Part shown: one piece after another, positions 1 through 20,880 of the stretch
Layout: each line of letters begins with the position of its first letter
Numbering within the stretch: the stretch's first letter is position 1
NCBI GenBank assembly: GCA_947455215.1
Contig: CANGNA010000005.1
Span: 1 to 64,000 of the forward strand
Reading direction: 5' to 3'
DNA length: 64,000 nucleotides
From: Chitinophagaceae bacterium
Lineage (GTDB): Bacteria > Bacteroidota > Bacteroidia > Chitinophagales > Chitinophagaceae
Notes under the pieces: model-generated
What the model saw: only the letters and a program-made list of their open reading frames with translations
What the model was told of the DNA's origin: nothing
Databases searched by the model: none
Position numbers and translations under genes: made by a program

Positions 1-3000
1 TGAGGCCTTTAATTCAAGCGGATATGATACGCCACAATAGGTGTAAGCGCCAATTTCAGGATCATAAAGATAAAACGGTGCGGATTCTGCTACTGCTACC
101 GAATAACTTGATGCCGTATTTACGGTCACGGTTACAGTATTGCTGATCACGCATCCTCCACTTGTCGTGCCAGTAACTGTATAAGTTGTAGTAACAGACG
201 GAGCAACCGAAGGTGCAGCCTTTGTTGTTGACGATAACCCTGCGGAAGGAGTCCATGAATATGTAACAGCCCCTGAGGCTGTAAGAGTAGTTGCAGCGCC
301 CTGGCATATTACCCTATTGCCACTTATTGACATAGATGGAATGTTAACTGTAACCACCGCTGTATTTCCGCAACCATGAATATCAGTTCCTACAACCGAG
401 TAAGTGGTGGTATTAGCAGGCGTTACAACAAAAGGATTGGCTGACGACCCTCCGGGAGACCACGAATAGGACACACCTCCGGACGCTGTAAGTGTTGCGG
501 AAGTACCACTGCAGATCGTAACACTGCCGCCGGCAAGGATAACCGGCAGAGGATAAGTAGGGACAGCTATTCCTGAAGTATCATGACAACCGTTGGTATC
601 AACCACAACGTAATAATAGTAACCGGTATCAGCTGGCGTTACAGATATACTATCACAAGTCGCATTAATACAAGATACAGTTGTATTGCCGTACCATGCA
701 TATGTTCCCGAAGGTGATGGCACGTAAAGGATATCCGAAGAACCGGAACAAACTACTTCCTGAGCAGCAACCGGTGCGTTTGGCGTGCCAAAAGTATTTA
801 TTGCTACAGAAGAAGTTCCAGTACATCCGCTGGCATCGGTAGCCGTTACCATAAAAGTACTATACCCGGCCACTACCGCTGTTGCAGTGTAACAAGACCC
901 ATCGGTACAACTTACTCCTCCTGACCATGAATAGCTATAAGCAGGATCCGGCGACATAACACTCAATGTAATTGTAGCCCCGTTACATACCAATGTAGCA
1001 GACACTCCGCTTGCAACAACAGGAAGTGGGATCACATGTATCGTAAACGTGTCTGTCTGACTGCAACCGAGGGTATCGGTAGCTATAACGGTATACGTTG
1101 TTGTCGTATCAGCACTAATATTGATCGAATCACAATATGCATTCATACATGCGTAAGAACCGGATGAAGGTCCCCACCAATAGGTAACAGACATTATTGG
1201 ATCGACTATGTGCGCTGAAGCTACCTGTCCGGCGCAGACATTAGCATTGGCTACTGCTATTGCCAATGGCACATTCATCAGAACAGCCAATTGGGCGGTA
1301 TCTGAACAGCCGGCAGAATCCGTTGCCGTCAGTACATATCCGGTATTCACAACGGGATGATCAGTCGCAGTATAGCAATCAGGATCTGAACAGGCAACTC
1401 CTCCTCCTGACCAAGAATAAGTATATAATGAGGTAGGATTGACAACAGACATAGCGACGGCCGAGCCGGAACAGACCGTATTCTTATCAATTGACCCTGC
1501 AACCTTGACATGGTGTACATTAACAGAGATAACATCAACGGCGCTACAGCCTCCGCTTGTTGCGGTGAGCGTATAAGTACCGGAGTTGAATACTCTTATG
1601 TGAATAAGTGTATCGCCACTGTTGTCTATGACGCTATCAGACTCTCCAAATCCTGACCAACTATATGTGTATCCGGCGACAGGATGGTCTGCGTGAAGCG
1701 TTACTATCTGTCCGACACAGGCTACTGTACTACTTGCCGAAGCTGAAACCGGCGTAGACATTTCGACTGTTTGAGTAGCGATATTGGTGCAACCATTGAT
1801 ATCTGTAGCAATAACGGTATAAACAGTAGCTGTTAAGGGATAGTCAACAGCGCTATAACAATTAGCTGATGTGCACGATATAGTGCCACCTGCCCATGAA
1901 TAAGTCGTACCTGAGACAGGAGAAACTACAGAGAGTGTTGCTACATTGCCGGCGCATACCGCCGCCGTTGCAGCTAACGTAACGGGCGTTGAGGAATATA
2001 TAGTTACAGCAACGGTTGCAGTGGCAGAACATGCGCCATCTATGAGGCTGTTTGCAGTGACAGTATACACCGTATTGGAACCCGGATGGGCAATAGCTGA
2101 AGTACAATCTTCTGCAACACAAGTAACATCTCCACCACTCCAAGAGTATACAATAAAGCCAACCGGGTCTATCACAGATAAACTAACGGCTGCTCCGGGA
2201 CATACACTGAGCGAGGGTACCGGCACACTAAGCGGCAGAGACATATTGACGGCAACTGTTGATGTTGCCCGGCATCCAAATGTGTTGGTAGCCGTGACCG
2301 TATAAACCGTATTGTTCACGGGAACATCTGTTGCAATATTGCATGATGATGAAATACAAGATACGCCACCGCCCGACCATGTGTAAGTAAGAGACGGATC
2401 ATAGTCTGGCATAGATAAAGTAACACTGGAACCCGCACAAATTGCATTAATGCTGGAAACTGCTGTTACAGAAGGTACCGGATAAACAGCGATACTTTGT
2501 GTAGCTCTAGCGGAACATCCGAAAGCGTCAAGGGCTGTGACAGTATAAATCGTGCTACCCACTACTGTTGCCACCGCTTCTGTACACAGTGAATTTGTGC
2601 ATGTAGTATAGTCTCCAGACCATGTGTAAAAAACATTGGGATCAGGTGATACTATGGAAAGTAAAGCGCTTCCTGCACCACAAAGCGTTGTTGCACTGGC
2701 TGAAACAACCACAGGCTGTGAATGCACATTAATAGTTATCGTAGCTGTACGCCTGCATCCAGACGTAGCAGTCGACGTGACCGTATATGTTGTTGTTACA
2801 CCAATCGTATCTACTACTGAGTCGCAGAGAACACCAATACAGGAGGGGTCACCCGACCATTGGTATGTTAAGGTTGGATCCGCATCGACAACATGCATAT
2901 GAACAACATCCCCGGCACAAATATCTACATTATCAGCAGCTAACAATAATGGTGGTGAAGCCAGAGCGTTGACATAGACACTATGAGACGAGGTACAACC

Positions 3001-6000
3001 TGCACTATTCGTTGCCTGGACACTAATATTGCCGGAAACGAGCGGATGAGCTATTGCCTGGTGACAATCAGTTCCAAGGCAGGCAATATCGCCTCCACTC
3101 CACGTATATGTAGTTGCGTCATCAGGTGAAACCAACATAAAAATAACACTATCTCCTTCGCAAACCGTAACTGAGTCTGTAAGCGTATGCACAGAAGGAT
3201 AAGGATAAATGTGGACTGTAAAAATGCTACTTGTATCGGTTCCGATTGTATCTGTCACCGTAAAGTAGAGTTGATCTGTATCAGATGGAGAATAAGTATA
3301 GATTGAATCTGTAGCCAATGCTATCGGACTAAATCCAGAACCAGCTGTACTCTTGAACCATTGATAAGCTATTGCCGGCGGCACGCCCGATGGGCGCACA
3401 GCTACAAATGCCTGTGGTGCGCCTGTAGATGAGTTAGAGCACTGACCGGGGCGTGAAGCAATTGCAGGATAAGCCCGGCCTGCAATTACTGGGATCGCCA
3501 CACTCCGCTCTGTTCCTGCAGTACAACCACGCGCACAATCAGTAATCGACAATATAGTTATCAAATTAGTACCAATTGGTATGGGTGGCATTGGCGTATG
3601 TACATTGGAAATAGTACAGGTATAGGGGCCACCGGTTATAAAATCTGGTCCGGTACCAAAATCTTGATAGTCATACCTGTAGGTCGCGGTCAAACAATGC
3701 CCTGCGGTATACCCAGGACAGAAAATTTCCCATGCTGTACCTCCAAGGTACACAGGAACAGTTTCGGGGAAATATGATGCCGCATTGGAAACAGAAGGCC
3801 ATGGACCATAGCTTGAACAACCGGTAAACGCACTGGTAATGCTTGTTACTGTATAACTTAAATGGCTTTGTGCAGATACAGCTAAAACATACGAGCCACT
3901 TCCTGGAATTATAGCTGTTCTATCTGCGGGAGGCTCAATAACACCATCATATAACACCTGGTAGTGGACAGTAGAATACGGCGTGCCATTGAAATGTAAA
4001 TACGTTATCCCTTCCCAATCGCACGTCTGATCGACAGACGGGAAAACAGTAGGATTACGATTAACGGTTATTGTAGTAGATGCCGTCACTGTGCATGAAC
4101 CACTTGAAGCAACTATTGTATATATTCCAGCGTCTGAGCTCGTAGCCGATGAAGAATTATATGTATAAGACGGCGTACCTGTATGATACGGCAATGTAAC
4201 GTCGGGGTAGGATCCTCCTAAAGTAGATATGTGTTGCAAAATTACGCTGGATGGACATGTAGATGTACAATTGGACTGTATGGAGAAAGCCTGTCCGGCA
4301 CAGACTGAAAATGCAGGTGTAATAGTAACAGCAGGATTGGGGTTGGGGGTGATGGTAAAAGTTGGTCCAGCATCATTATTGGTACAACCATATCCCGTCG
4401 CACTTGTCACCTGATAACTGAACGGTCCTGCACCTGTGGGAACAGGAGTTATCAACAATGTAGTAGTATTAGTAATAGCGGCACCCGAAGGTATCGGCAC
4501 AGTCCAGCTGCCGGTAGTAGGTGAAACACCCTGAATTGTAACCGACCCACCACTTGGTCCTACGAGGGTTAGAGTGAATGGCTGGCCCACACAAGGTTTT
4601 GTACTTGCTGTTATAATACCTGTCGGCTTCTTAACAGTGATATCTATTGTTTGCTTTATGGGGCTACTGCAAAACCCATCAGATACGCTCGACAAATACA
4701 AATGAAATGTCCCTTCCGTTAGTCCCGGGTAATACAAATGACCATCGCCAGAGGCATCAAGTGTTGTGCTAAGCAGGGTACTGAGGAAAAGATCACTGGG
4801 CCGCCTTACATAGTAATAAACTGTTGCACCGGGTGTACCATGCAATGGAATTGTTAAATCGCCCGGGCACATTACCGGAAGAAAACTAACTGGACAAGAA
4901 GCTGTTGGCAAAGGTAATACTGTAACAGAAAACAAAGCTGGTGTCGGGGTGCCACAACCATTATCAGGAGCAGCATATGTGATCGTAGTTGATCCGACAC
5001 TGGCCGCGATAAAGGTTCCTGTAATTGCACCGCCGAAGCCATATGTGTGTACATGATTACCAATAAATGATGGCCCCCAGGTACCCAGCGCATTGCCGGT
5101 TGTAGTATATGTCTGGATTGCCCCGAGGCAAAGCTTATCCGGGCCTGTAATAACTCCAGACGTTGGTGTTGGCATAATAGTGTGCGTATTTACAGCCTGA
5201 ATTTTACATCCAAAGCTGTTGGTGATATCTACTGTTGCCATTACAGGAGTTGGTGCAGTAATAGAAGAGCAAGGCACAGCAGCATGAGTGACCGTCGCAG
5301 CTGTACTTGGCGAGTAAGAAGTAGGGATCCAGGAATAAGTACATCCCGTGCCACAATTCGAGGTATTGGCAGTTATAGACCATGGACTACCACAACAAAT
5401 AGGAGAAGGAGACACATTAAAAGTAACAGATGGTACCGGGTTGGGTTGTAACGTATAAGTGAGTGTAGTAGTGCCTGTATGGGTCAGTTTAATATCATCT
5501 ATAACAAATTCATTGTGAAGATCTTTACCTGTATTCCGCAAATCCTCGAACGTAATTATATCACTTGGATTAATAGTATAATTGCTATTATCTGATATCG
5601 GCTGCCAACCTGAACAACCAGGATTCATGGTCAACATTAAAATTTTGGAAGCGCCAATCTTCACTCTAATTATCGGTCTTTCATCAACCAAAAAACCTAA
5701 ATGCCTGTTGTTAGCTACAGATCGGACACGGCATTCAAAAATGTAATTACCATAACCACTACCAGAAATGTATTGATACAAAAAACGACCTGTGCCGTTT
5801 TTACTTCCGTCAACTGTGAGCATGTTGCCAGTTCCTGTGTTGTAATCTCCAAATGGAGGTAAACAGTCATTGTGACCACAGTCATCGCTGTGGTTAGTTA
5901 CCTGGATCCAGCTTGGTCCGCCACATCCCAGGCTATAGTCTGAGTTCCAGCATGACATTCCATTGTCAAAATTTCCGTTACAAATCAAATTACATGTTGC

Positions 6001-6303
6001 AGTAACACTAAACGTTGCCGATTGAGGAGTATTGGGCATTGTAAAGTGTGTCGATGGCGCGTTTGCGGGTGTACATATTACTCCGCCAGTACCTGCCCAC
6101 GAATATGAAACACCCGTTGGACTACCACTTAACGTAACTGTTGGCGTTAATGTCACAGTCCGCCCCGGACACGCTGTAACGGTACGGCTACCTACCGGCG
6201 TTACCGTTATACACTGTCCAAAACTGTTTAAAGAAAATCCGAAAAGGAACATGATGGGCAAAAGGCATACCCATCCCAGGTGGGATTTGTTTTTGTTTGT
6301 CAT
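1..6303 (-). CDS. Giant secreted Ig/PKD-repeat surface protein (3' end outside window)
   Basis: I checked this frame codon by codon from the ATG at 6303 towards position 1 and saw no stop, giving at least 2101 residues; the C-terminus is off the window. Residues 1-30 are a signal peptide (basic start, hydrophobic core, ending SFGQ). An Ig-like segment follows, then about residues 105-280 resemble a CBM4/9 or galactose-binding-like jelly roll (opens NGNFDNGMSCW, contains VIDDIKLTH). The rest is a chain of Ig/PKD/SprB-like repeats of 70-81 residues with the signature YSWSGG...YTVTATD..GC. Such proteins in Bacteroidota are usually T9SS-exported adhesins or gliding-associated surface proteins; here that is inference, because the sorting domain is not visible. 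It is the last gene of a minus-strand run, separated from pccB by a terminator. Not identifiable as SprB itself. Confidence 0.9.
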   Translation of the reverse strand, partial: MTNKNKSHLGWVCLLPIMFLFGFSLNSFGQCITVTPVGSRTVTACPGRTVTLTPTVTLSGSPTGVSYSWAGTGGVICTPANAPSTHFTMPNTPQSATFSVTATCNLICNGNFDNGMSCWNSDYSLGCGGPSWIQVTNHSDDCGHNDCLPPFGDYNTGTGNMLTVDGSKNGTGRFLYQYISGSGYGNYIFECRVRSVANNRHLGFLVDERPIIRVKIGASKILMLTMNPGCSGWQPISDNSNYTINPSDIITFEDLRNTGKDLHNEFVIDDIKLTHTGTTTLTYTLQPNPVPSVTFNVSPSPICCGSPWSITANTSNCGTGCTYSWIPTSYSPSTAATVTHAAVPCSSITAPTPVMATVDITNSFGCKIQAVNTHTIMPTPTSGVITGPDKLCLGAIQTYTTTGNALGTWGPSFIGNHVHTYGFGGAITGTFIAASVGSTTITYAAPDNGCGTPTPALFSVTVLPLPTASCPVSFLPVMCPGDLTIPLHGTPGATVYYYVRRPSDLFLSTLLSTTLDASGDGHLYYPGLTEGTFHLYLSSVSDGFCSSPIKQTIDITVKKPTGIITASTKPCVGQPFTLTLVGPSGGSVTIQGVSPTTGSWTVPIPSGAAITNTTTLLITPVPTGAGPFSYQVTSATGYGCTNNDAGPTFTITPNPNPAVTITPAFSVCAGQAFSIQSNCTSTCPSSVILQHISTLGGSYPDVTLPYHTGTPSYTYNSSSATSSDAGIYTIVASSGSCTVTASTTITVNRNPTVFPSVDQTCDWEGITYLHFNGTPYSTVHYQVLYDGVIEPPADRTAIIPGSGSYVLAVSAQSHLSYTVTSITSAFTGCSSYGPWPSVSNAASYFPETVPVYLGGTAWEIFCPGYTAGHCLTATYRYDYQDFGTGPDFITGGPYTCTISNVHTPMPPIPIGTNLITILSITDCARGCTAGTERSVAIPVIAGRAYPAIASRPGQCSNSSTGAPQAFVAVRPSGVPPAIAYQWFKSTAGSGFSPIALATDSIYTYSPSDTDQLYFTVTDTIGTDTSSIFTVHIYPYPSVHTLTDSVTVCEGDSVIFMLVSPDDATTYTWSGGDIACLGTDCHQAIAHPLVSGNISVQATNSAGCTSSHSVYVNALASPPLLLAADNVDICAGDVVHMHVVDADPTLTYQWSGDPSCIGVLCDSVVDTIGVTTTYTVTSTATSGCRRTATITINVHSQPVVVSASATTLCGAGSALLSIVSPDPNVFYTWSGDYTTCTNSLCTEAVATVVGSTIYTVTALDAFGCSARATQSIAVYPVPSVTAVSSINAICAGSSVTLSMPDYDPSLTYTWSGGGVSCISSSCNIATDVPVNNTVYTVTATNTFGCRATSTVAVNMSLPLSVPVPSLSVCPGAAVSLSVIDPVGFIVYSWSGGDVTCVAEDCTSAIAHPGSNTVYTVTANSLIDGACSATATVAVTIYSSTPVTLAATAAVCAGNVATLSVVSPVSGTTYSWAGGTISCTSANCYSAVDYPLTATVYTVIATDINGCTNIATQTVEMSTPVSASASSTVACVGQIVTLHADHPVAGYTYSWSGFGESDSVIDNSGDTLIHIRVFNSGTYTLTATSGGCSAVDVISVNVHHVKVAGSIDKNTVCSGSAVAMSVVNPTSLYTYSWSGGGVACSDPDCYTATDHPVVNTGYVLTATDSAGCSDTAQLAVLMNVPLAIAVANANVCAGQVASAHIVDPIMSVTYWWGPSSGSYACMNAYCDSINISADTTTTYTVIATDTLGCSQTDTFTIHVIPLPVVASGVSATLVCNGATITLSVMSPDPAYSYSWSGGVSCTDGSCYTATAVVAGYSTFMVTATDASGCTGTSSVAINTFGTPNAPVAAQEVVCSGSSDILYVPSPSGTYAWYGNTTVSCINATCDSISVTPADTGYYYYVVVDTNGCHDTSGIAVPTYPLPVILAGGSVTICSGTSATLTASGGVSYSWSPGGSSANPFVVTPANTTTYSVVGTDIHGCGNTAVVTVNIPSMSISGNRVICQGAATTLTASGAVTYSWTPSAGLSSTTKAAPSVAPSVTTTYTVTGTTSGGCVISNTVTVTVNTASSYSVAVAESAPFYLYDPEIGAYTYCGVSYPLELKAS
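640..3230 (-). repeat. Eleven tandem ~80-aa (240-243 nt) Ig-like repeats within the giant protein
   Basis: Equivalent codons recur every 240-243 nt (for example near 823, 1063, 1306, 1546, 1790, 2030, 2275, 2515, 2755 and 2995). Each repeat reads roughly C.G..V.L.V..P....Y.WSGG...C....C......YTVTATD..GC. Ten of the eleven contain a C-x4-C pair just after the WSGG turn (CLGTDC, CISSSC, CTDGSC and similar); the repeat near 1560-1780 lacks it. Two shorter repeats to the left (about 100-600) have no such pair. The repeats are diverged at the DNA level, so this is old protein-level duplication and not a recent array. Confidence 0.85.
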
Positions 6304-9554: not shown

Positions 9555-11114
9555 TTAGCGCCTGCGGTTATTCTCTTCACCAAAATGGTTACCTGCAGAT
9601 TCGTTGTTACCGCTTGGGCTACCCAGACGATCAACTACGCAACGGAAACCGATAGTGTTAGAAGACAGGTTACCCTGCATATAACGGCGTGTACCCGGAG
9701 ACAACCAGTAAGCACGGTCGGCCCATGAACCACCCTTGTATACCTTGGTAGAGTCGTTAACCAGCGATGTAACACCGTAAGCGTAGCTACCATAGTAGTT
9801 CAGGTTACCGCCACCAACTGTAGAGTCACCATCCTGGTAAGAATGCAGGTTAGAAGTACGTATCCTGCGGCCTTGTACTGATGCTTCGTTAGCCGGTACG
9901 CGCTGATATGGAATGTGACCAGTGCTGTCCCTTTCTTCTACAGTACCATCTTCCTGGAACTGAGGCCTTGTATAATCATTACCACGACCAGGGCGGAATT
10001 CATCGTTCATATTCTCGGGACGATAAGTATCCATAACCCACTCGTTCACGTTACCGGCCATGTTATACAAACCCCATGCATTGCGCTGGAAGCTCTTAAC
10101 CTTAGCAGTGATATCAGCGTTATCATTGAGCGCACCGGCAACACCCATCGCATCGCCCTTACCCCTCATGTAGTTACCCATGATCTCGCCCTGGTACATA
10201 TTGTGCAGGTCGTAACGGGTAGTATTCCTTGGGCCCCATGGCAGTACGTTATTATCTGTAATAACTTCCTCACCACGACGGCGCTTGGTTTCAGGGGCAG
10301 GGTTGTTACCTACCAGGCCCAGCGCTGCATATTCCCACTCAGCCTCTGTAGGCAAGCGGTAATCAGGCATGAACACACCATCTGAAAGATTGTATGGACG
10401 CGTACCGGCACCATTCGGATCAAGGTCCCTTGCAGGACGGTGACCGATAGAACCCTGGTACTGGCCATTCATATAAGTTTCTGTAGTAAATACGTCTTCA
10501 CCTGTCTGGTTAACGTTAGGCTGCAATGCGCCTATCTGTATCAGCAGGAACTCGTTAACGCGGTCTGTGCGCCATTTACAGTAATCGGCAGCCTGGTACC
10601 AGTTAACACCTACAACCGGATAATCGTTGTAAGCGGCAGCCCTGAAGTAGTTCTTTACATAAGGCTCGTTATAACCCAGTGGCGAACGCCAAACTGTAGA
10701 GTCAGGAAGCGCTGCTGCAACTATTTCAGGAAGGTCATTGGCGTATGCACGGCCCATCCAGTAAATATACTCGCGGTAGTCTACGTTGGCCAGCTCAGTT
10801 TCGTCCATATAGAATGAAGAAACTGATACGGTGCGCCTGTTAGCGTTGTTTTCAACGGTAACCAACTCATCGTCTTTTGCGCCCATTGTGAAACGGCCAC
10901 CCTGAACCAGCACCATGCCCATAGGCGTTAGCTGACCCGGGTAATTCTCGGCTACAGCGTAACCACCCCAACGGCTATCGTTGTGGGCCCAACCGGTAGT
11001 CCTTGAGATACCATCACCCCTACCCACATTACGCGAATGTGAAGAGCAAGCAGAAAGGAATGAAGCTACTCCAAAGCCGAGCAATGCAACACCTAAAAAT
11101 TTCCTATTCTTCAT
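9555..11114 (-). CDS. gldJ: Gliding motility/T9SS lipoprotein GldJ (SUMF1/FGE-fold)
   Basis: A 519-residue outer-membrane lipoprotein. The signal peptide ends in a lipobox with acceptor Cys23 (FLSACSS). From about residue 60 to 500 it has the formylglycine-generating-enzyme (sulfatase-modifying factor) fold: GGRFTMGAKDD, a YRLPTEAEWEYAA-type segment, GNVNEWV, KGGSWADRAYWL and a terminal GFRCV. GldJ and GldK are paralogues. I favour GldJ because the gene sits beside murF and diverges from porU and porV, the arrangement known in Flavobacterium, whereas gldK normally precedes gldL, gldM and gldN, which are absent here. GldJ is needed for gliding and stabilises the T9SS core. GldK remains the alternative. 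Confidence 0.85.
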   Translation of the reverse strand: MKNRKFLGVALLGFGVASFLSACSSHSRNVGRGDGISRTTGWAHNDSRWGGYAVAENYPGQLTPMGMVLVQGGRFTMGAKDDELVTVENNANRRTVSVSSFYMDETELANVDYREYIYWMGRAYANDLPEIVAAALPDSTVWRSPLGYNEPYVKNYFRAAAYNDYPVVGVNWYQAADYCKWRTDRVNEFLLIQIGALQPNVNQTGEDVFTTETYMNGQYQGSIGHRPARDLDPNGAGTRPYNLSDGVFMPDYRLPTEAEWEYAALGLVGNNPAPETKRRRGEEVITDNNVLPWGPRNTTRYDLHNMYQGEIMGNYMRGKGDAMGVAGALNDNADITAKVKSFQRNAWGLYNMAGNVNEWVMDTYRPENMNDEFRPGRGNDYTRPQFQEDGTVEERDSTGHIPYQRVPANEASVQGRRIRTSNLHSYQDGDSTVGGGNLNYYGSYAYGVTSLVNDSTKVYKGGSWADRAYWLSPGTRRYMQGNLSSNTIGFRCVVDRLGSPSGNNESAGNHFGEENNRRR

Positions 11115-11150
11115 AATGTTATACTGAAATATTTATCCGTATTAGTACGA

Positions 11151-11158
11151 CAAACTTA
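11151..11158 (-). promoter_or_regulatory. Putative -7 element of the gldJ promoter
   Basis: The minus strand reads TAAGTTTG, an exact match to the Bacteroidota -7 consensus TAnnTTTG, about 36 nt before the gldJ ATG. No good -33 TTTG lies at the expected spacing, so this is tentative. Confidence 0.35.
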
Positions 11159-11327
11159 ATTAACGAGAGACAATGTTAGTACTTTCTTTTGAAATTTTCA
11201 AGCATACCAGCCACAAAAAATAATTTTTATGTGGATAAATATTTCACCAAGGTAAAATATACGTTAATGTTTACCGTTATAGATGAGGTTAAAGCAGCGC
11301 AGATAGCCTGTTTAAGCCATATTTCGT

Positions 11328-11335
11328 TAATTTTG
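11328..11335 (+). promoter_or_regulatory. Putative -7 element of the porU promoter
   Basis: The plus strand reads TAATTTTG (TAnnTTTG consensus) 36 nt before the preferred porU ATG at 11372. It lies inside the longer possible N-terminal reading, which supports the downstream start. No clear -33 box. Confidence 0.35.
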
Positions 11336-11371
11336 ATTGAAATCGCTCTTTCGCCGGAAAGCCTGACTTAT

Positions 11372-14300
11372 ATGAAAAAAGTATTTATAAAAATAGCCGC
11401 CTTGTTGCCGCTCCTCACTACTGCCGTTACCACGGCCCGTGCTTATGTTACCGACTACAACATAACGGAGCAGGAGATACACCAGGGCTATATCTATAAA
11501 AAAGTGTGGTTGAAGAGCAACACCCCACCCTCTGTAAAAGTGATCGGCAGCACCTACACCGGTACCGGCCTTGCTGTTGCAGGCACTACTTTAGGCACTA
11601 CTGCCGACATCAATGTACGTGTGGGTGTAGAGCGTAAGCGGCCCTTTGCTATCATAGGCATACCTGCTTACCGCAAAAGCGCCGATGGACAGCATGTAGA
11701 AAGGCTGAGCGATGTTTCTGTAGACATTACAGAACAGGCCACACCGGCAGGTACTATGGCGGCCAAACCAACTACGGCTACTAATTCCGTATTGGCAAGC
11801 GGCACATGGTATAAAATAGGTATCACCAACACAGGCCTGTATAAGATAGATGCTACCCTGCTTACCACTATGGGTGTATCCCTTTCCTCTATCGATCCTG
11901 CCAATATCCGTATAGTAGGTAATGGCGGCAACGTACTGTCCGAGAACAACGCCCTGCCGCGCACCAACGACCTTACAGAAAATAACATCTGGGTGAATGA
12001 TGGAGGGGATAATGCCTTTAACACTGGCGACTACGTGGTATTTTATGGTGTAGGACCTACTACTATTGTTAAGGATAGCCTGAACCGGAAATTCACCCAC
12101 ATCAATAATCTGTATTCCGATACCGCTTATTATTTCATCAGCTTTAACAGCGGTGCGGGGGCCAGGGTGCAATCGCAGGGTACAGCCCCGGCTGCCAATG
12201 TCACCTCGTCGGGCTTCAACTATTATAGTGTCAGCGATATCGACAACATCCAGCCCTCTACTTATGGTAAAGGTTGGCTGGCGGAAAAATTCTCTCCGGA
12301 TATAAATGTCAATACCAAGAACTTTTCTTACAACCTGGGCGATAATATAGCCAACCTTACGGCCCGTATATCGTTTGCCTGCACACAGGGTTACCCCGGC
12401 AGTACCATGAGTGCCACGCTCAATGGCGCATCATTCTGCTCGGTAACCTTTAATAATATTACCACGCCAGATGGTGCTGTACTATTATACCTGAACCCGG
12501 AAAAGACCGCAGCTTGCAATTCCAATATCGCTAACTTCTCTATTACATTCAATGCTTCCGGTGGCGATGCGTCAGCCAAAGGATACCTCAACTATATAGA
12601 GCTGAATGGCCGCAGAAGCCTGAACATCACCGGCAGCCAGCTTAACTTCCGCGACTGGGAGACCGTTGGCGCAGGCAATGTTGCCAGCTACTCGCTGGCA
12701 AGTGCCAATTCATTTACGCGCGTATGGGATGTGACCGACCCGCAGCACCCCGTGCAGATGGCCGGATCGCTGAGCGGCAGCACTTACTCCTTCTCCCAGG
12801 ATGCATCAAGGCTTCATGAGTTTGTAGCCATGAACAGCGACGCGTTGAATACGCCTGCTTATATAGGCACTGTAGATAACCAGAACTTACATGCATCAGC
12901 CCCGGCAAGAATGATCATTGTTACCGCGCCGCAGCTGTTATCTGCAGCTAAAGACCTGGCCAATTTCCATACAACGCACGACAACATGACCTGCCAGGTG
13001 GTGACCACTACGCAGGTATACAACGAATTTTCTTCCGGGGCGCAGGACATCAGCGCCATACGCGACTTTGTGCGGTATAAGTATGAAATGGCCGGCACCG
13101 ATACTGCATCTATGCCCCATTACCTGCTGCTGTTCGGCAGTGCATCGTACGACTACAAACACAGGCTGCCTAACAATTGCAACCTGGTGCCTACCTTCGA
13201 ATCGGCCAACGATACCAATGCCATTGCCGCTTTTATGAGCGACGATTTTTATGGCTTTCTCGACGATTCTGAGAATATAGAAGATGAATCGCGCATCAAT
13301 GCGCTGGATGTAGGCGTAGGCCGTATATCTGCGCGAGACCTGGCCACAGCCAATGACGTTGTAGCCAAGATCATACATTATAAATCCAGCGAAACACTGG
13401 GCCCATGGCGCATTGCAGGTATGTTTGTAGGCGATAATAATGACGGGGCCGGCTTCCATTGCGGCGACGCTGAGGTAATGGCACGCACGGTAAATAACAG
13501 TACAAACAACCTCTATAACGAGCAAAAAGTATACCTGGACGTTATTCCGATCACCACTACTCCTGCCGGCGACAGGTGTCCGAACGCCAACGTAGCTATA
13601 TCGGACCAGATATATAAAGGTGTTTTCATGCTCAACTATAATGGCCATGGCCGTCACGACCTGCTGGCGCATGAACGCATACTGACATCGGACGACTACA
13701 ATACATGGGGCAACATCAATTCATTGCCTTTTATGATCACGGCCACATGCGACTTTGGCCAGTTCGACCATCCGGATTATATCTCTGCCGCTGAAGCACT
13801 ATTGTTTGACACCAAGGGTGGCGTAATAGCTATGATCACTACTACCCAGGCAGTATTCGCATCGCAAAACGCGGATATGAACAGGGAATACCTTGCCTCA
13901 CAATTCACCAAAAACAGCGAGAACAACTGGAACACCTTTGGCGATGCGTTTATGACCGGCAAGAACATGACCTACCTTACATCGCACGATAAATTTGAGC
14001 TGATCAATTTCCGTAAATGGGCGTTGATAGGCGACCCTGCCCTTGTGCCTAATTTCCCGGAGCATAAGGTATATTTAGACAGTGTTATTGACGGGGTTAC
14101 CCTGGAACAAGCCGATAGTGTCAAGGCGCTGGGTAAGTACATACTGAAAGGATCGGTAAGGGATGCGAACGGTAATGTACTCAACAATTTTACCGGTACA
14201 ACATCTATCTCCTTCTACGATAAAGCCAGGAGTGTAGCATTCCCTCCGGGCTTGTCGCTTGGCTCTTTCAAGCTGCAGGATAATGTGATCTATAAAGGAA

Positions 14301-15133
14301 AAGTAAGTGTGACCAATGGCCACTTTGCACTAACCTTCATTACGCCTAAAGACATCAATTATTTCTTTGGCAAGGGTAAGATCAGCACCTATGCAGAGAA
14401 CGGATCGACCGATGCCGCCGGCATGGATACATCAGTAGCTGTTGGTGGTTTTTCAGATAACCCGGTGTATAACGACAATCCGCCAATAGTACAGCCATAT
14501 ATCAACGATAGCCTGTTCATCAATGGCGGTATCACCGCTGCCAACACCTCTCTTTTTGTTGTGCTGCATTCCGAAACCGGCATCAATGTATCGGGATATT
14601 CTATCGGCCACGACCTTATTGGCATCCTCGACGGCCAGGTAGAATCCCCTTATATATTGAATGACTATTACGAAACAGCCCCTAATACTTATCAGCTGGG
14701 TTATGTAAAATTCCCTGTTTCGGGGTTGGCCAACGGCCCGCATAGCATAAGGGTAAAGGCATGGGATGTGAATAATAATATGGGCGAGGGCACGGTAGAC
14801 TTTGTAGTGGTAGATGGGCAGGTAGTAGCCATACAGGGCCTGGGCAACTACCCTAACCCATTCTCTGGCAATACGCACTTTGTATTTGAGCACAACCACC
14901 CCGATGAAGCCATGGATGTGACCATATCTATATATAATACAGGCGGTGCATTGGCAAAGACCATACAACAAAGCTTTACACCAACAGGTAGCCGCAGTGC
15001 AGACATTACCTGGGATGGCACCACAGATGGTGGCGCTCCATTGCCTGCGGGGGTATATGTTTACAGGCTCACTTTAAGCACAGAAAAAGGTTTTAAGGCC
15101 TCTGCATACCAAAAGTTGGTAATTATACGTTAA
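11372..15133 (+). CDS. porU: T9SS C-terminal signal peptidase (sortase) PorU
   Basis: A 1253-residue gingipain-type C25 cysteine peptidase. In the type IX system PorU removes the C-terminal signal of cargo at the cell surface and attaches the cargo to the lipopolysaccharide anchor. I start at the ATG at 11372 because it gives a normal signal peptide (MKKVFIKIAALLPLL...ARA); the frame stays open to 11189, but that extension is not signal-like. The catalytic dyad is visible as His759 in NYNGHGRHD and Cys793 in TATCDFGQFD. The C-terminus (about the last 95 residues, from NYPNPFSGN to LVIIR) is a FlgD-like/T9SS C-terminal domain. porV follows after 87 nt, and gldJ diverges upstream. Confidence 0.95.
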   Translation: MKKVFIKIAALLPLLTTAVTTARAYVTDYNITEQEIHQGYIYKKVWLKSNTPPSVKVIGSTYTGTGLAVAGTTLGTTADINVRVGVERKRPFAIIGIPAYRKSADGQHVERLSDVSVDITEQATPAGTMAAKPTTATNSVLASGTWYKIGITNTGLYKIDATLLTTMGVSLSSIDPANIRIVGNGGNVLSENNALPRTNDLTENNIWVNDGGDNAFNTGDYVVFYGVGPTTIVKDSLNRKFTHINNLYSDTAYYFISFNSGAGARVQSQGTAPAANVTSSGFNYYSVSDIDNIQPSTYGKGWLAEKFSPDINVNTKNFSYNLGDNIANLTARISFACTQGYPGSTMSATLNGASFCSVTFNNITTPDGAVLLYLNPEKTAACNSNIANFSITFNASGGDASAKGYLNYIELNGRRSLNITGSQLNFRDWETVGAGNVASYSLASANSFTRVWDVTDPQHPVQMAGSLSGSTYSFSQDASRLHEFVAMNSDALNTPAYIGTVDNQNLHASAPARMIIVTAPQLLSAAKDLANFHTTHDNMTCQVVTTTQVYNEFSSGAQDISAIRDFVRYKYEMAGTDTASMPHYLLLFGSASYDYKHRLPNNCNLVPTFESANDTNAIAAFMSDDFYGFLDDSENIEDESRINALDVGVGRISARDLATANDVVAKIIHYKSSETLGPWRIAGMFVGDNNDGAGFHCGDAEVMARTVNNSTNNLYNEQKVYLDVIPITTTPAGDRCPNANVAISDQIYKGVFMLNYNGHGRHDLLAHERILTSDDYNTWGNINSLPFMITATCDFGQFDHPDYISAAEALLFDTKGGVIAMITTTQAVFASQNADMNREYLASQFTKNSENNWNTFGDAFMTGKNMTYLTSHDKFELINFRKWALIGDPALVPNFPEHKVYLDSVIDGVTLEQADSVKALGKYILKGSVRDANGNVLNNFTGTTSISFYDKARSVAFPPGLSLGSFKLQDNVIYKGKVSVTNGHFALTFITPKDINYFFGKGKISTYAENGSTDAAGMDTSVAVGGFSDNPVYNDNPPIVQPYINDSLFINGGITAANTSLFVVLHSETGINVSGYSIGHDLIGILDGQVESPYILNDYYETAPNTYQLGYVKFPVSGLANGPHSIRVKAWDVNNNMGEGTVDFVVVDGQVVAIQGLGNYPNPFSGNTHFVFEHNHPDEAMDVTISIYNTGGALAKTIQQSFTPTGSRSADITWDGTTDGGAPLPAGVYVYRLTLSTEKGFKASAYQKLVIIR

Positions 15134-15220
15134 TAGGAATGGCAGCGGCACAATCAATTGTTGCGATAGTGGCCAAAAAGGAATATTTTTGCAAAACTTT
15201 AAATAAAACACTAATATAGA

Positions 15221-16441
15221 ATGGCAAGATTTTTTGCATTTGCTGGCCTGACGCTGATGACGGGACTGATAAACCAGGGTGCATTTGCACAGATGGCGGC
15301 AAAAACAACCCAAACAACCGCTAGCTCCTATAACATAGGCGGCCAAAACAAAGACTTTGTTACCACTGCTGTTCCATTCCTCCGCATTACTCCCGATTCA
15401 AGGGCAGGTGCTATGGGCGATGCTGGTATAGCTACCAGTGCCGATGCCAATGCACAATACTGGAACATAGCTAAAATGCCATTTAACGAGAAGAATTATG
15501 GTGTTTCCGTAACCTATACTCCATGGCTTAAAGACCTTGTTCCGGATATCTTCCTGGCATACATTTCTGCTTACAAAAAGATAGGTAAGGACAACAACCA
15601 GGCGATCAGTGCCTCTATGCGCTATTTCTCCCTGGGTAACATTGCCTACACAACTTATACAGGCGACCCTAACGGTACTGGTATGCCTCGTGAATATTCC
15701 TTCGACCTCGGCTATTCCCGCAAATTGTCTGAATATTTCTCTGTTGGTCTTACCATGCGTTATATTCACTCGGCCATCGCATCAGGCGTAAGCTACCTGC
15801 CGGGCAACAACTACAAGCCAGGCAATGCTATGGCTGCTGACGTAGGCGTTTTCTACACTAAGAAGAAAGAAATAGACGAGTTGCGCTCCCGCACGCTGAA
15901 TCTTGGCGCTACCATCACCAACCTGGGTACCAAGATATCTTACAACTCTGTGCGTAAAGACTTCATCCCTACTAACCTGGGCCTGGGTGCTGCTTACACC
16001 AGCCAGTTCGACCAATATAACAAGATCACTTTCGCACTGGACATCAATAAGCTGCTGGTGCCTGCGCTGAACAATTCTGACACACAGATATCTGTAGTAA
16101 GCGGTGTGTTCAAATCATTTGGTGGTGGCGATCAGTTCCAGAAACTGGACATCTCCCTGGGTGCTGAATATTGGTACCAGGACCAGTTTGCACTGCGTGC
16201 AGGCTATTTCTACGAAGACAAGAACAATGGCGACCGCCAGTACATAACAGCCGGCCTTGGTGTTAAATACAATGTATTCCAGCTCAACGCCGCTTATATT
16301 GTACCACAGGGCAGCGGTACTACCCGCAACCCACTGTCTAACACAGTTCGCTTCTCGCTGCTGTTCGAATTCGACAAGCTGGGTGGTGGCACCTCATCTG
16401 ACGAACCACCTGCAGACGTAACTCCGCCAGCAGGTCAGTAA
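15221..16441 (+). CDS. porV: T9SS outer-membrane protein PorV (LptO)
   Basis: A 406-residue outer-membrane beta-barrel of the FadL-like family. A signal peptide (MARFFAFAGL...GAFAQ) is followed by the conserved opening PFLRITPDSRAGAMGDAGIA and alternating amphipathic strands. PorV binds the C-terminal domain of cargo leaving the SprA translocon and passes it to PorU. Adjacency to porU agrees with this. The barrel ends in FSLLFEFD, followed by an acidic, proline-rich tail (SDEPPADVTPP). Same operon direction as porU, ended by a strong terminator. Confidence 0.95.
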   Translation: MARFFAFAGLTLMTGLINQGAFAQMAAKTTQTTASSYNIGGQNKDFVTTAVPFLRITPDSRAGAMGDAGIATSADANAQYWNIAKMPFNEKNYGVSVTYTPWLKDLVPDIFLAYISAYKKIGKDNNQAISASMRYFSLGNIAYTTYTGDPNGTGMPREYSFDLGYSRKLSEYFSVGLTMRYIHSAIASGVSYLPGNNYKPGNAMAADVGVFYTKKKEIDELRSRTLNLGATITNLGTKISYNSVRKDFIPTNLGLGAAYTSQFDQYNKITFALDINKLLVPALNNSDTQISVVSGVFKSFGGGDQFQKLDISLGAEYWYQDQFALRAGYFYEDKNNGDRQYITAGLGVKYNVFQLNAAYIVPQGSGTTRNPLSNTVRFSLLFEFDKLGGGTSSDEPPADVTPPAGQ

Positions 16442-18733: not shown

Positions 18734-18834
18734 AGACTTGCTTTGAATTACAGAAATAAATGTACAATTTTGCGACAAAAGTCCGTAGTTATTGTTATAT
18801 TAGCCGTTTATTACGGAATTTCTTTTTCTGGATT

Positions 18835-20880
18835 ATGAAAAAATCTCTGCTACTAGTAGTCATATTATTATTGTCGCAACTGAATTCCTTACAGGCACAG
18901 TCTTTATTTGTTGCCCCTGACACTGTGTGTGTAGGGCAGGCAGTAAAGGCGAACAGCACCATTTTTGATGCTGCGTCCTATTACTGGGGATTCTGCTCGG
19001 GCTCTATCAACTTCGCACCCACTGGCACTAACATGGGTAGCGGATTTGGTTTCCATACGCCATCTTCTATAGAGACCATTCGCGACAAGGATGGCCGCTA
19101 TTATGGCTTCGTGCTGAATGCGGGCACCGATGAAATGCTGCGCCTGAACTATGGTACCAGCCTGAACAATGTGCCTACCGTAACCAACTTCGGTAACCTT
19201 ACCAATGGCCTGCCGCACCACCCTACGTCCATGCACATCACTTACGATACGGTAAATACCAGGTGGCACATATTTGTTACCGGCGGCTATACAGCTGCAG
19301 AGTCTCAACTGGCACGTGTAGATTTTGGCCCTAAACTGAGCAACCCACTACCTAACGTTGCTAATTTCGGCAACCCTGGCGGCCTGCTCAACGGCCCTCG
19401 TGGTATATTTGTTTGCCAGGATGCAGACCTGAACTGGTATGGCTACCTTGTTAACCGCAACAATAACCTGCTGATACGTCTCGATTTCACGTTTAATGTT
19501 TCCAATACGCCTACTAATGTTCAATCTCTTGGTAATCCTAACGGCGTACTTAACTTCCCTACAGATCTGGCTGCTATCATAGACAATGACAGATACTACT
19601 TCTTTGTAACCAACAGGGGTAACAGCACTATTGCGCGCCTTGATATAGGAGGCACACTTAATACTACAAGCGTTAACGGCACAAACCTGGGCGACTTCCT
19701 GTTCCGTGTGCTGGAGCCGTCGTCTATCAGCCTTACAAGGGATTGTGGCGGCATCTACGCTTACATCACTGATAGCTCTACCAGCCAGCTGGTATGCATA
19801 CAAATGGCAACCGCCCTGGGTGCATATACCCCTGTAACCTATAGTGTTGTTGGTGGCATGAACTTCCCTTCAGGTATTTCCGGCATTCTTCGCGACAAAG
19901 ATGAGCTGTATGCCTTTATAGTAAACACTTACGACAGTTCACTCACTAAGTTATCTATCGGCCAGTGTACCAACGCGTCTATTCCTTCATTCTCTGAAGT
20001 AACACCACCGGTTTATCACTACGATGCCCCGGGCACATACAATATTTATTACGTCATCAATGATGGCCAGCCTAACATGCAGGTAGAATGTAAGCAGATA
20101 GTAGTAATGCCTACACCAAACATCTTCATCAATCTTAACCCGACCATTTGCGAAGGCGACAGCATCAAATTGTACGCTATTTCCAACTATGCCGATTCTA
20201 TCAAATGGACATCTAACTACCATATTGATACGGCATATCATCATACAGACACCATCAACGCATGGCCTGATTATACCTCTACCTACTATGTTTCCCTGTA
20301 TTACCCTGATGGCTGTATCGTAGATACTTCCATACACATCAACGTAATTAAGGTAATGGCAGATGCGGGTCCAGACCGTACAATAGCTGACGGTGCAGTA
20401 TCTGTATTGGGTGGCCCTGGAATGTCTCTGGGCGAAGGCTTCACTTACCACTGGAATTCATACCAATATCTTGACGACACCACATTGCCATACCCCACGG
20501 CGCATCCTCCTTTCGACATCACTTACGATGTAACTGTAACAGAGCACTTGTCCGGCCTTGGTTGCCAGTCGAGAGATACTGTTGTTGTTCACCTTAACTG
20601 TGGCGACATTTATGCGCCAAATGCATTTGCCCCTGCCAGCACAAGCCCTGGTGCCAACAGGTTTGGTATACTGAACCTGGAACTGATACAGCTGAACTAC
20701 CTGCGCGTTTACGATCGCTGGGGTGTATTGGTCTTCCAGACAAGCAGCCCTTCACAAATGTGGGATGGCACGTACAATGGCACACCATGCCCTACAGGCG
20801 TGTATGTGTGGGAAGCAGACGGCTTCTGCTCCAGTGGCAAAGAAGTGAAAAAACAAGGCAATGTCAGCCTGCTGAGGTAG
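18835..20880 (+). CDS. Secreted beta-propeller-like protein with T9SS type B sorting domain
   Basis: A 681-residue exported protein. The ATG at 18835 gives a clean signal peptide (MKKSLLLVVILLL...LQAQ). Residues about 60-380 hold roughly six repeats of 55-60 residues of the form D.D..YGFVVN....LLRLDFG..L.N.P....GN..G.LN.P, which suggests a six-bladed beta-propeller. An Ig/PKD-like stretch follows. The last ~85 residues are the gliding-motility-associated C-terminal (CHU_C/type B) domain, with YAPNAFAP, LRVYDRWGVLVFQ, WDGTYNG and PTGVYVWE. It is expected to leave the cell through the T9SS encoded alongside. Ligand unknown. A small gene follows after 15 nt. Confidence 0.88.
   Translation: MKKSLLLVVILLLSQLNSLQAQSLFVAPDTVCVGQAVKANSTIFDAASYYWGFCSGSINFAPTGTNMGSGFGFHTPSSIETIRDKDGRYYGFVLNAGTDEMLRLNYGTSLNNVPTVTNFGNLTNGLPHHPTSMHITYDTVNTRWHIFVTGGYTAAESQLARVDFGPKLSNPLPNVANFGNPGGLLNGPRGIFVCQDADLNWYGYLVNRNNNLLIRLDFTFNVSNTPTNVQSLGNPNGVLNFPTDLAAIIDNDRYYFFVTNRGNSTIARLDIGGTLNTTSVNGTNLGDFLFRVLEPSSISLTRDCGGIYAYITDSSTSQLVCIQMATALGAYTPVTYSVVGGMNFPSGISGILRDKDELYAFIVNTYDSSLTKLSIGQCTNASIPSFSEVTPPVYHYDAPGTYNIYYVINDGQPNMQVECKQIVVMPTPNIFINLNPTICEGDSIKLYAISNYADSIKWTSNYHIDTAYHHTDTINAWPDYTSTYYVSLYYPDGCIVDTSIHINVIKVMADAGPDRTIADGAVSVLGGPGMSLGEGFTYHWNSYQYLDDTTLPYPTAHPPFDITYDVTVTEHLSGLGCQSRDTVVVHLNCGDIYAPNAFAPASTSPGANRFGILNLELIQLNYLRVYDRWGVLVFQTSSPSQMWDGTYNGTPCPTGVYVWEADGFCSSGKEVKKQGNVSLLR

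Follow-up and report, generated by a model that had tools for sequence, protein, structure and literature searches.

The window examined here, a 64,000-nucleotide stretch (positions 1 to 64,000 of contig CANGNA010000005.1, assembly GCA_947455215.1) from a Chitinophagaceae bacterium, opens with the gene of a giant secreted protein that carries a long array of immunoglobulin (Ig)-like repeats, ten of which hold two cysteines four residues apart (C-x4-C) in the same loop. This first gene is a stop-free minus-strand frame from 6345 to 1 (2115 residues) that is open at the contig edge, window position 1 being the end of the contig (C5) in a 4.2 Mb genome (G000). The ATG at 6301-6303, followed by a stretch that by eye resembles a signal peptide in the translation, is the likely start, so that 1-6303 would encode the N-terminal 2101 of approximately 3000 residues. 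An NCBIfam search of the window protein gave no match.

The first 149 bases of C5 (1-149) are 100% identical to the last 149 bases of another contig of the same genome (G000:C33:43699-43847), with no further match within that genome. On C33 the frame carries the protein on in register for 927 residues, overlap counted in, and ends in a Por_Secre_tail sorting domain (44.6 bits against a cut-off of 23, and 47.2 bits against a cut-off of 27). This C-terminal domain marks a type A substrate of the type IX secretion system (T9SS), the assignment depending on the 149-base overlap in the same frame. From this we infer that the C5 and C33 frames form one type IX-secreted protein of approximately 3000 residues. 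The identical contig ends, which fall within the gene of the Ig array, probably reflect an assembly break.

Pfam family PF19081 (Ig_7, Ig-like domain CHU_C associated) matches the array in 13 stretches at 124.3 bits (curated cut-off 27.3), bearing out the description of the repeats as Ig-like in the initial annotation. These repeats, R1 to R13, span 3213 to 73 on the minus strand, and they show four recurrent cysteine positions: C1 in a VC.G motif, C2 and C3 in the C-x4-C pair after a Y-x-W motif, and C4 in a GC motif; C1, Y-x-W and GC form the frame that they have in common with the Pfam family. In the repeat alignment, the pair-bearing repeats and their loops are R1 (2971-3213; CLGTDC, 3064-3081), R2 (2734-2970; CIGVLC, 2824-2841), R3 (2491-2733; CTNSLC, 2584-2601), R4 (2254-2490; CISSSC, 2341-2358), R5 (2008-2253; CVAEDC, 2104-2121), R6 (1771-2007; CTSANC, 1858-1875), R8 (1288-1524; CSDPDC, 1375-1392), R9 (1039-1287; CMNAYC, 1132-1149), R10 (802-1038; CTDGSC, 892-909) and R11 (565-801; CINATC, 655-672). 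The pair had been reported in ten of eleven consecutive repeats, and we count it at the same place in exactly these (R1-R6 and R8-R11). R7 keeps C1 and C4 and lacks both loop cysteines; the annotation had recognised this exception but placed it at 1560-1780, and it actually lies at 1525-1770. The two leftmost repeats, R12 (358-564) and R13 (73-357), together covering 73-564, belong to the same family and, as had been noted, stand outside the pair-bearing set, with C1 and C4 but no loop cysteines. At the other end, a further Ig-like domain, R0 (3208-3513, minus strand), precedes R1; it has a C1-like cysteine (3439-3441) and no C4.

Among the ten pair-bearing repeats, the only invariant alignment columns are C18 (C1), Y36, W38, C45 (C2), C50 (C3) and C73 (C4), while the four residues between C2 and C3 differ in each copy. 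The contrast of a kept pair and a variable loop, already remarked upon in the annotation, is thus confirmed. As cysteine makes up 4.8% of the residues in R1-R11, two columns with cysteine in 10 of 11 copies are not a chance result. Pairwise identity among R1-R11 is 22-43%, and the cysteine codons are mixed, with seven TGT and three TGC at C2 and the same numbers at C3. Together these values indicate old copies under selection, and the low identity rules out recent duplication of the repeats.

To place the pair within its family, we parsed 766 Ig_7-like domains with a profile started from R1-R13, with loci taken from public contigs and from genomes at three taxonomic levels (genus, family and phylum) besides the window's own. 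The Y-x-W motif was present in 616 domains, which form the basis of the loop count (the 150 domains lacking it were left out). A cysteine occurs between W+1 and W+15 in 84 of these, as C-x2-C in 65 domains from 22 loci, as C-x4-C in 15 and singly in 4, so that 80 of the 84 are paired; the other 532 have no cysteine after Y-x-W. A pair at this position is therefore not a standard part of the Pfam family; the opposite outcome had been named beforehand as one that would refute the initial annotation's reading. Its suggested novelty was nevertheless overstated, since C-x2-C is common in the same loop of the same family. The C-x2-C form is typified by W-S-P-A-T-G-L-S-C-x-x-C, with the first cysteine mostly at W+8 (W+7 in C-x4-C). 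The second cysteine lies 13 residues before the strand-F tyrosine in both types of pair (63/65 C-x2-C and 13/15 C-x4-C), so that C-x4-C amounts to an already known lock of this loop with a lengthened turn; a proline at C3+7 is likewise shared (53/65 and 10/15). Arrays of the W-x-P-x-x-G-L-S-C-x2-C type (e.g. L101/G303 and L100/G196) thus resemble the window repeats in loop position, tyrosine spacing and proline, but have two residues between the cysteines where all ten window repeats have four. Judged by these alignments, C-x4-C is a spacing variant with a turn two residues longer, not a new kind of site. A C-x3-C form also exists, in a protein (L058) of Chitinophagaceae bacterium Jr-11may16-07 (G003), a member of the same genus. 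In the window's own genome, the giant Ig_7 array L093 (G000:C68, a 3706-residue frame) has eight domains with one extra cysteine further along the loop, giving three cysteines per domain, one without an obvious partner.

Within the searches and cut-offs used, the C-x4-C variant appears rare. In its own genome, the ten C-x4-C repeats reach 85-107 bits, whereas the next-best Ig_7 domain scores 45. When 11 genomes of the genus were searched, matches above 50 bits (52-75) occurred outside the genome itself in G003 alone, where they fall in the L058 protein, which has four C-x4-C repeats and one C-x3-C repeat. Matches were found in 6 of 394 family genomes (E 1e-12) and 3 of 395 phylum genomes (E 1e-11), and no C-x4-C was present in the loci read from the four family genomes other than G003 and the genome itself, or in those from the two phylum genomes besides the genome itself. 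A search of an 84,980-species collection with one peptide pattern returned five relatives, with C-x4-C in this loop only in L058, and a further single C-x4-C repeat occurs in G006 (L108). The variant would accordingly be confined to arrays in the window protein and one congener and a single repeat in a third species. A first scan of genome contigs gave 20 stretches and no relatives. The DNA pattern for Y-x-W-x-G-x3-C-x4-C matched 173 of the 394 family genomes, with matches translated only for the loci kept, but a reversed control often matched too, placing this result near chance. Ig_7 arrays as such are widespread: of 148 genomes sampled across the phylum, 43 have them at E 1e-6 or better. 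A small tree unites the window's C-x4-C repeats with those of L058 (support 94/94), leaving window R11 and L108 outside; this group is only suggestive, as the tree was built on row samples (at most 13 from the window) and has many open forks.

The L058 protein differs from the window protein in its GH16-like N-terminal part and shorter array, and the N-terminal 1000 residues of the window protein have no match in G003 at E 1e-5. Because the G003 C-x4-C array sits between the GH16-like part and a sorting tail, the repeats look like a spacer rather than an active part. The G003 protein (L050, 5108-8481) begins within its GH16-like domain, a second frame ending six bases upstream; a frame break in the enzyme part is possible.

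We modelled R4-R6 with AlphaFold, using 57 of 72 candidate tandem rows in the folding alignment. The model is all beta (mean predicted local distance difference test score, pLDDT, 91.6; predicted template modelling score, pTM, 0.65), whereas folding three repeats from a single sequence gave a pLDDT of 33.9. It has the Ig-like beta-sandwich fold expected of Ig_7, its best structural matches being Ig domains and grappling hook protein A (GhpA). In R4, the first modelled domain, strands occupy residues 23-26 (B), 35-39 (C), 44-45 (C'), 52-55 (E), 61-68 (F) and 74-83 (G), the letters being our own assignment, and C1 to C4 are residues 18, 45, 50 and 73. C2 is thus the final residue of strand 44-45 and C3 falls shortly before strand 52-55, the pair flanking a four-residue turn around which the ten-residue pLDDT blocks reach 93-96. 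C1 comes ahead of strand B and C4 after strand F, an order of strands that would place them at opposite poles of the domain.

C1 and C4 appear to pair with each other between neighbours, C1 of domain n with C4 of domain n+1. This idea came from L058, whose domains carry, in order, C1 without C4 (R0), C4 without C1, C1 without C4 and then both in three domains, a pattern that fits C1(n)-C4(n+1) at every junction but breaks intradomain pairing three times. In the window, R0 has its C1-like cysteine and no C4, as this scheme requires; its partner would be C4 of R1 (2995-2997). From n = 1 to n = 10, C1(n) and C4(n+1) are 133-137 residues apart. In 83 runs of at least three domains (496 domains in 61 proteins, L058 among them; shorter runs left out), with 10 run-end domains next to an open reading frame end set apart, C1 was absent in 26/81 last domains vs 3/330 internal domains (Fisher 2.6e-17). 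Among 22 domains immediately preceding a CHU_C tail, C1 was missing from 20, each followed by an even number of cysteines (0, 2 or 4), while the two with C1 were followed by exactly one; C4 was kept in all 22. For a second sample, 70 loci were selected on CHU_C alone. They yielded 56 proteins, 15 of which remained as usable cases after 41 proteins without Ig_7 (20), with partial domains (13) or with non-adjacent domains (8) were dropped. Here, C1 was absent in 11/15 domains before CHU_C vs 4/123 followed by another Ig domain (Fisher 2.9e-10).

Several results weigh against this pairing. Cysteine parity held in 12/15 cases of the second sample (Fisher 0.08). In the co-loss test (674 of 766 domains kept, after dropping 92 without full C1-C4 coverage), the 461 adjacent pairs included a single joint loss of C1(n) and C4(n+1), which is not significant (Fisher 0.07), while the opposite pairing, C4(n)-C1(n+1), gave 0.016 on the strength of four cases, to which the similar proteins L113 and L114 contribute three. 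Internal exceptions occur in six proteins (L105, L036, L038, L096, L113 and L114); in L113 and L114, three-domain runs near residues 1677-1911 show the pattern C1C4, C1-, -C4, which does not suit interdomain bonds. A cysteine downstream of the last domain separates the two classes weakly (52/53 with C1 vs 22/26 without; Fisher 0.04), and loss of C4 at first domains is not significant (3/75 vs 5/330). Many array-end domains are also relatives, the 20 pre-tail cases without C1 forming 13 clusters, and because the sequences are related the p values are too small. Finally, the pTM of 0.65 leaves the domain-domain geometry of the R4-R6 model unsure. Elsewhere in the window, a CHU_C-tailed protein at 18760-20880 ends its Ig_7-like domains with one that keeps C4 and lacks C1, as interdomain pairing predicts.

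The initial annotation had proposed selection for either a disulfide or a metal site in the loop, and it is the disulfide that the data favour. The C-x4-C pair very probably forms an intradomain disulfide closing one loop: its cysteines come and go together (80 pairs against 4 singles), flank a confidently predicted four-residue turn, and are retained in domains that have lost C1 or C4. The last point comes from L058, in which the loop pair is present both in a repeat without C1 and in the following one, which is without C4; together with the loss of the loop cysteines as a pair in R7, it rejects a bond from C2 or C3 to C1 or C4. The annotation had raised pairing of the loop cysteines with the C.G and GC cysteines, and this is not supported, as C1 and C4 seem to pair separately, across domain boundaries. 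A metal ion (in a zinc- or iron-knuckle-like site) or a cofactor bound once per repeat in an exposed loop would agree with the often polar or acidic loops (LGTD, VAED, SDPD, TDGS), and C-x2-C and C-x4-C are spacings also known in metal sites. However, a cysteine knuckle should have at least one more conserved ligand close to the pair, and the ten repeats have no other invariant histidine, cysteine or aspartate beyond C1 and C4; the protein is moreover exported by type IX secretion, where disulfides are usual. We consider metal binding quite unlikely. Bonds between different molecules or filaments, making the array a cross-linked bundle, seem very unlikely: the loop is variable and the solved relative GhpA is a heptamer, but intermolecular bonds would be expected to use single cysteines, which are rare here, the cysteines forming a close pair in 80/84 domains.

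It is also conceivable that C1 and C4 pair inside each domain in the manner of a classical Ig, making C2-C3 a second bond of the same domain, and the presence of both cysteines in 607/674 domains agrees with this. We nonetheless find it unlikely, since the strand order in the model would put C1 and C4 at opposite ends of the Ig/Fn3 fold, array-end domains have lost C1 yet retained their own C4, and L058 misfits at the three places mentioned. We therefore prefer a reading with two kinds of disulfide, to which we give a probability of roughly 0.68. In each Ig_7 domain, C2-C3 would close the turn that links strand C' to strand E, as a lock two residues longer than the C-x2-C lock carried by about one in ten of the parsed domains. 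Beside it would act a family-wide disulfide between C1 (in C.G, before strand B) and C4 (in GC, in the F-G turn), bonding C1 in one domain (n) with C4 in the next (n+1). All four cysteines of a C-x4-C repeat would then be satisfied, one bond stiffening the loop and two stapling the domain to its neighbours, and the array would be a cross-linked rod holding the N-terminal part of the type IX-secreted protein away from its C-terminal half. What the data show is the cysteine pattern with its co-occurrence counts, the loop position in common with C-x2-C, the predicted fold and the loss of C1 at the ends of arrays; we infer the bonds themselves as well as their role, in which a locked loop may make the domain stiffer or protect it from extracellular proteases. 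An O-glycosylation role was also considered and rejected: the O-glycosylation motif D[ST][AILVMT] occurs at 14 sites vs a shuffled mean of 10.5, a count reached by 79/500 shuffles.

Among solved structures, the best sequence match is GhpA of Aureispira sp. CCB-QB1 (E 1.4e-67; PDB 9flp, 9flu, 9flw and others), fragments of which are also nearest to the R4-R6 model (Z 11.1); eukaryotic Ig adhesion proteins score nearly as high because the fold is common. GhpA has 5,898 residues and forms a heptamer (PMC13319060). Its dozens of domains include ones with the C1 and GC frame in the printed alignments; these covered part of GhpA and, unlike the window repeats, contained no loop cysteine pair. GhpA shares only the Ig array with the window protein, for which neither hook nor heptamer is implied. 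The SprB repeat model was not matched, and Pfam at E up to 1 gave only Ig_7 and K319L-like_PKD. Disulfides are known to be important in Bacteroidota gliding and secretion, with bonds between SprF and GldK reported in PMC12635249, although these proteins are different from the Ig arrays. The open papers searched, at the level of listings and abstracts, yielded no statement of interdomain disulfides in Bacteroidota Ig arrays, and the word "disulfide" is absent from PMC13319060; the GhpA structure paper, which this search did not cover, may already describe them.

Most simply, the window protein may be a stalk with modules at its ends, comprising an N-terminal part, the long Ig array and a C-terminal half that reads as beta-helix-like. 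More broadly, and with somewhat less assurance, we think it probable that long Ig_7/CHU_C-type arrays of Bacteroidota are chains covalently stapled through C1(n)-C4(n+1), supplemented in some lineages by a loop lock (C-x2-C, C-x3-C or C-x4-C). If so, a very common but poorly characterised group of secreted and surface proteins would consist of continuously cross-linked, force-resistant rods, and the beginning and end of a rod could be read from the cysteine pattern in any genome. It would then be possible to predict from sequence how these secreted giants behave mechanically and how well they resist proteases, with the cysteine count beside the sorting tail as a simple test. C-x4-C by itself is a small curiosity, a spacing variant in a few species; the wider result would be a rule by which the disulfides of Ig_7 arrays could be deduced from sequence.

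Beyond the array gene, the window contains a type IX secretion neighbourhood at 9555-16441. It comprises a protein with an FGE-sulfatase domain (9555-11114), a domain that occurs in gliding proteins, followed by a Peptidase_C25 protein (11189-15133), possibly the sortase PorU, and PorV (15221-16441).

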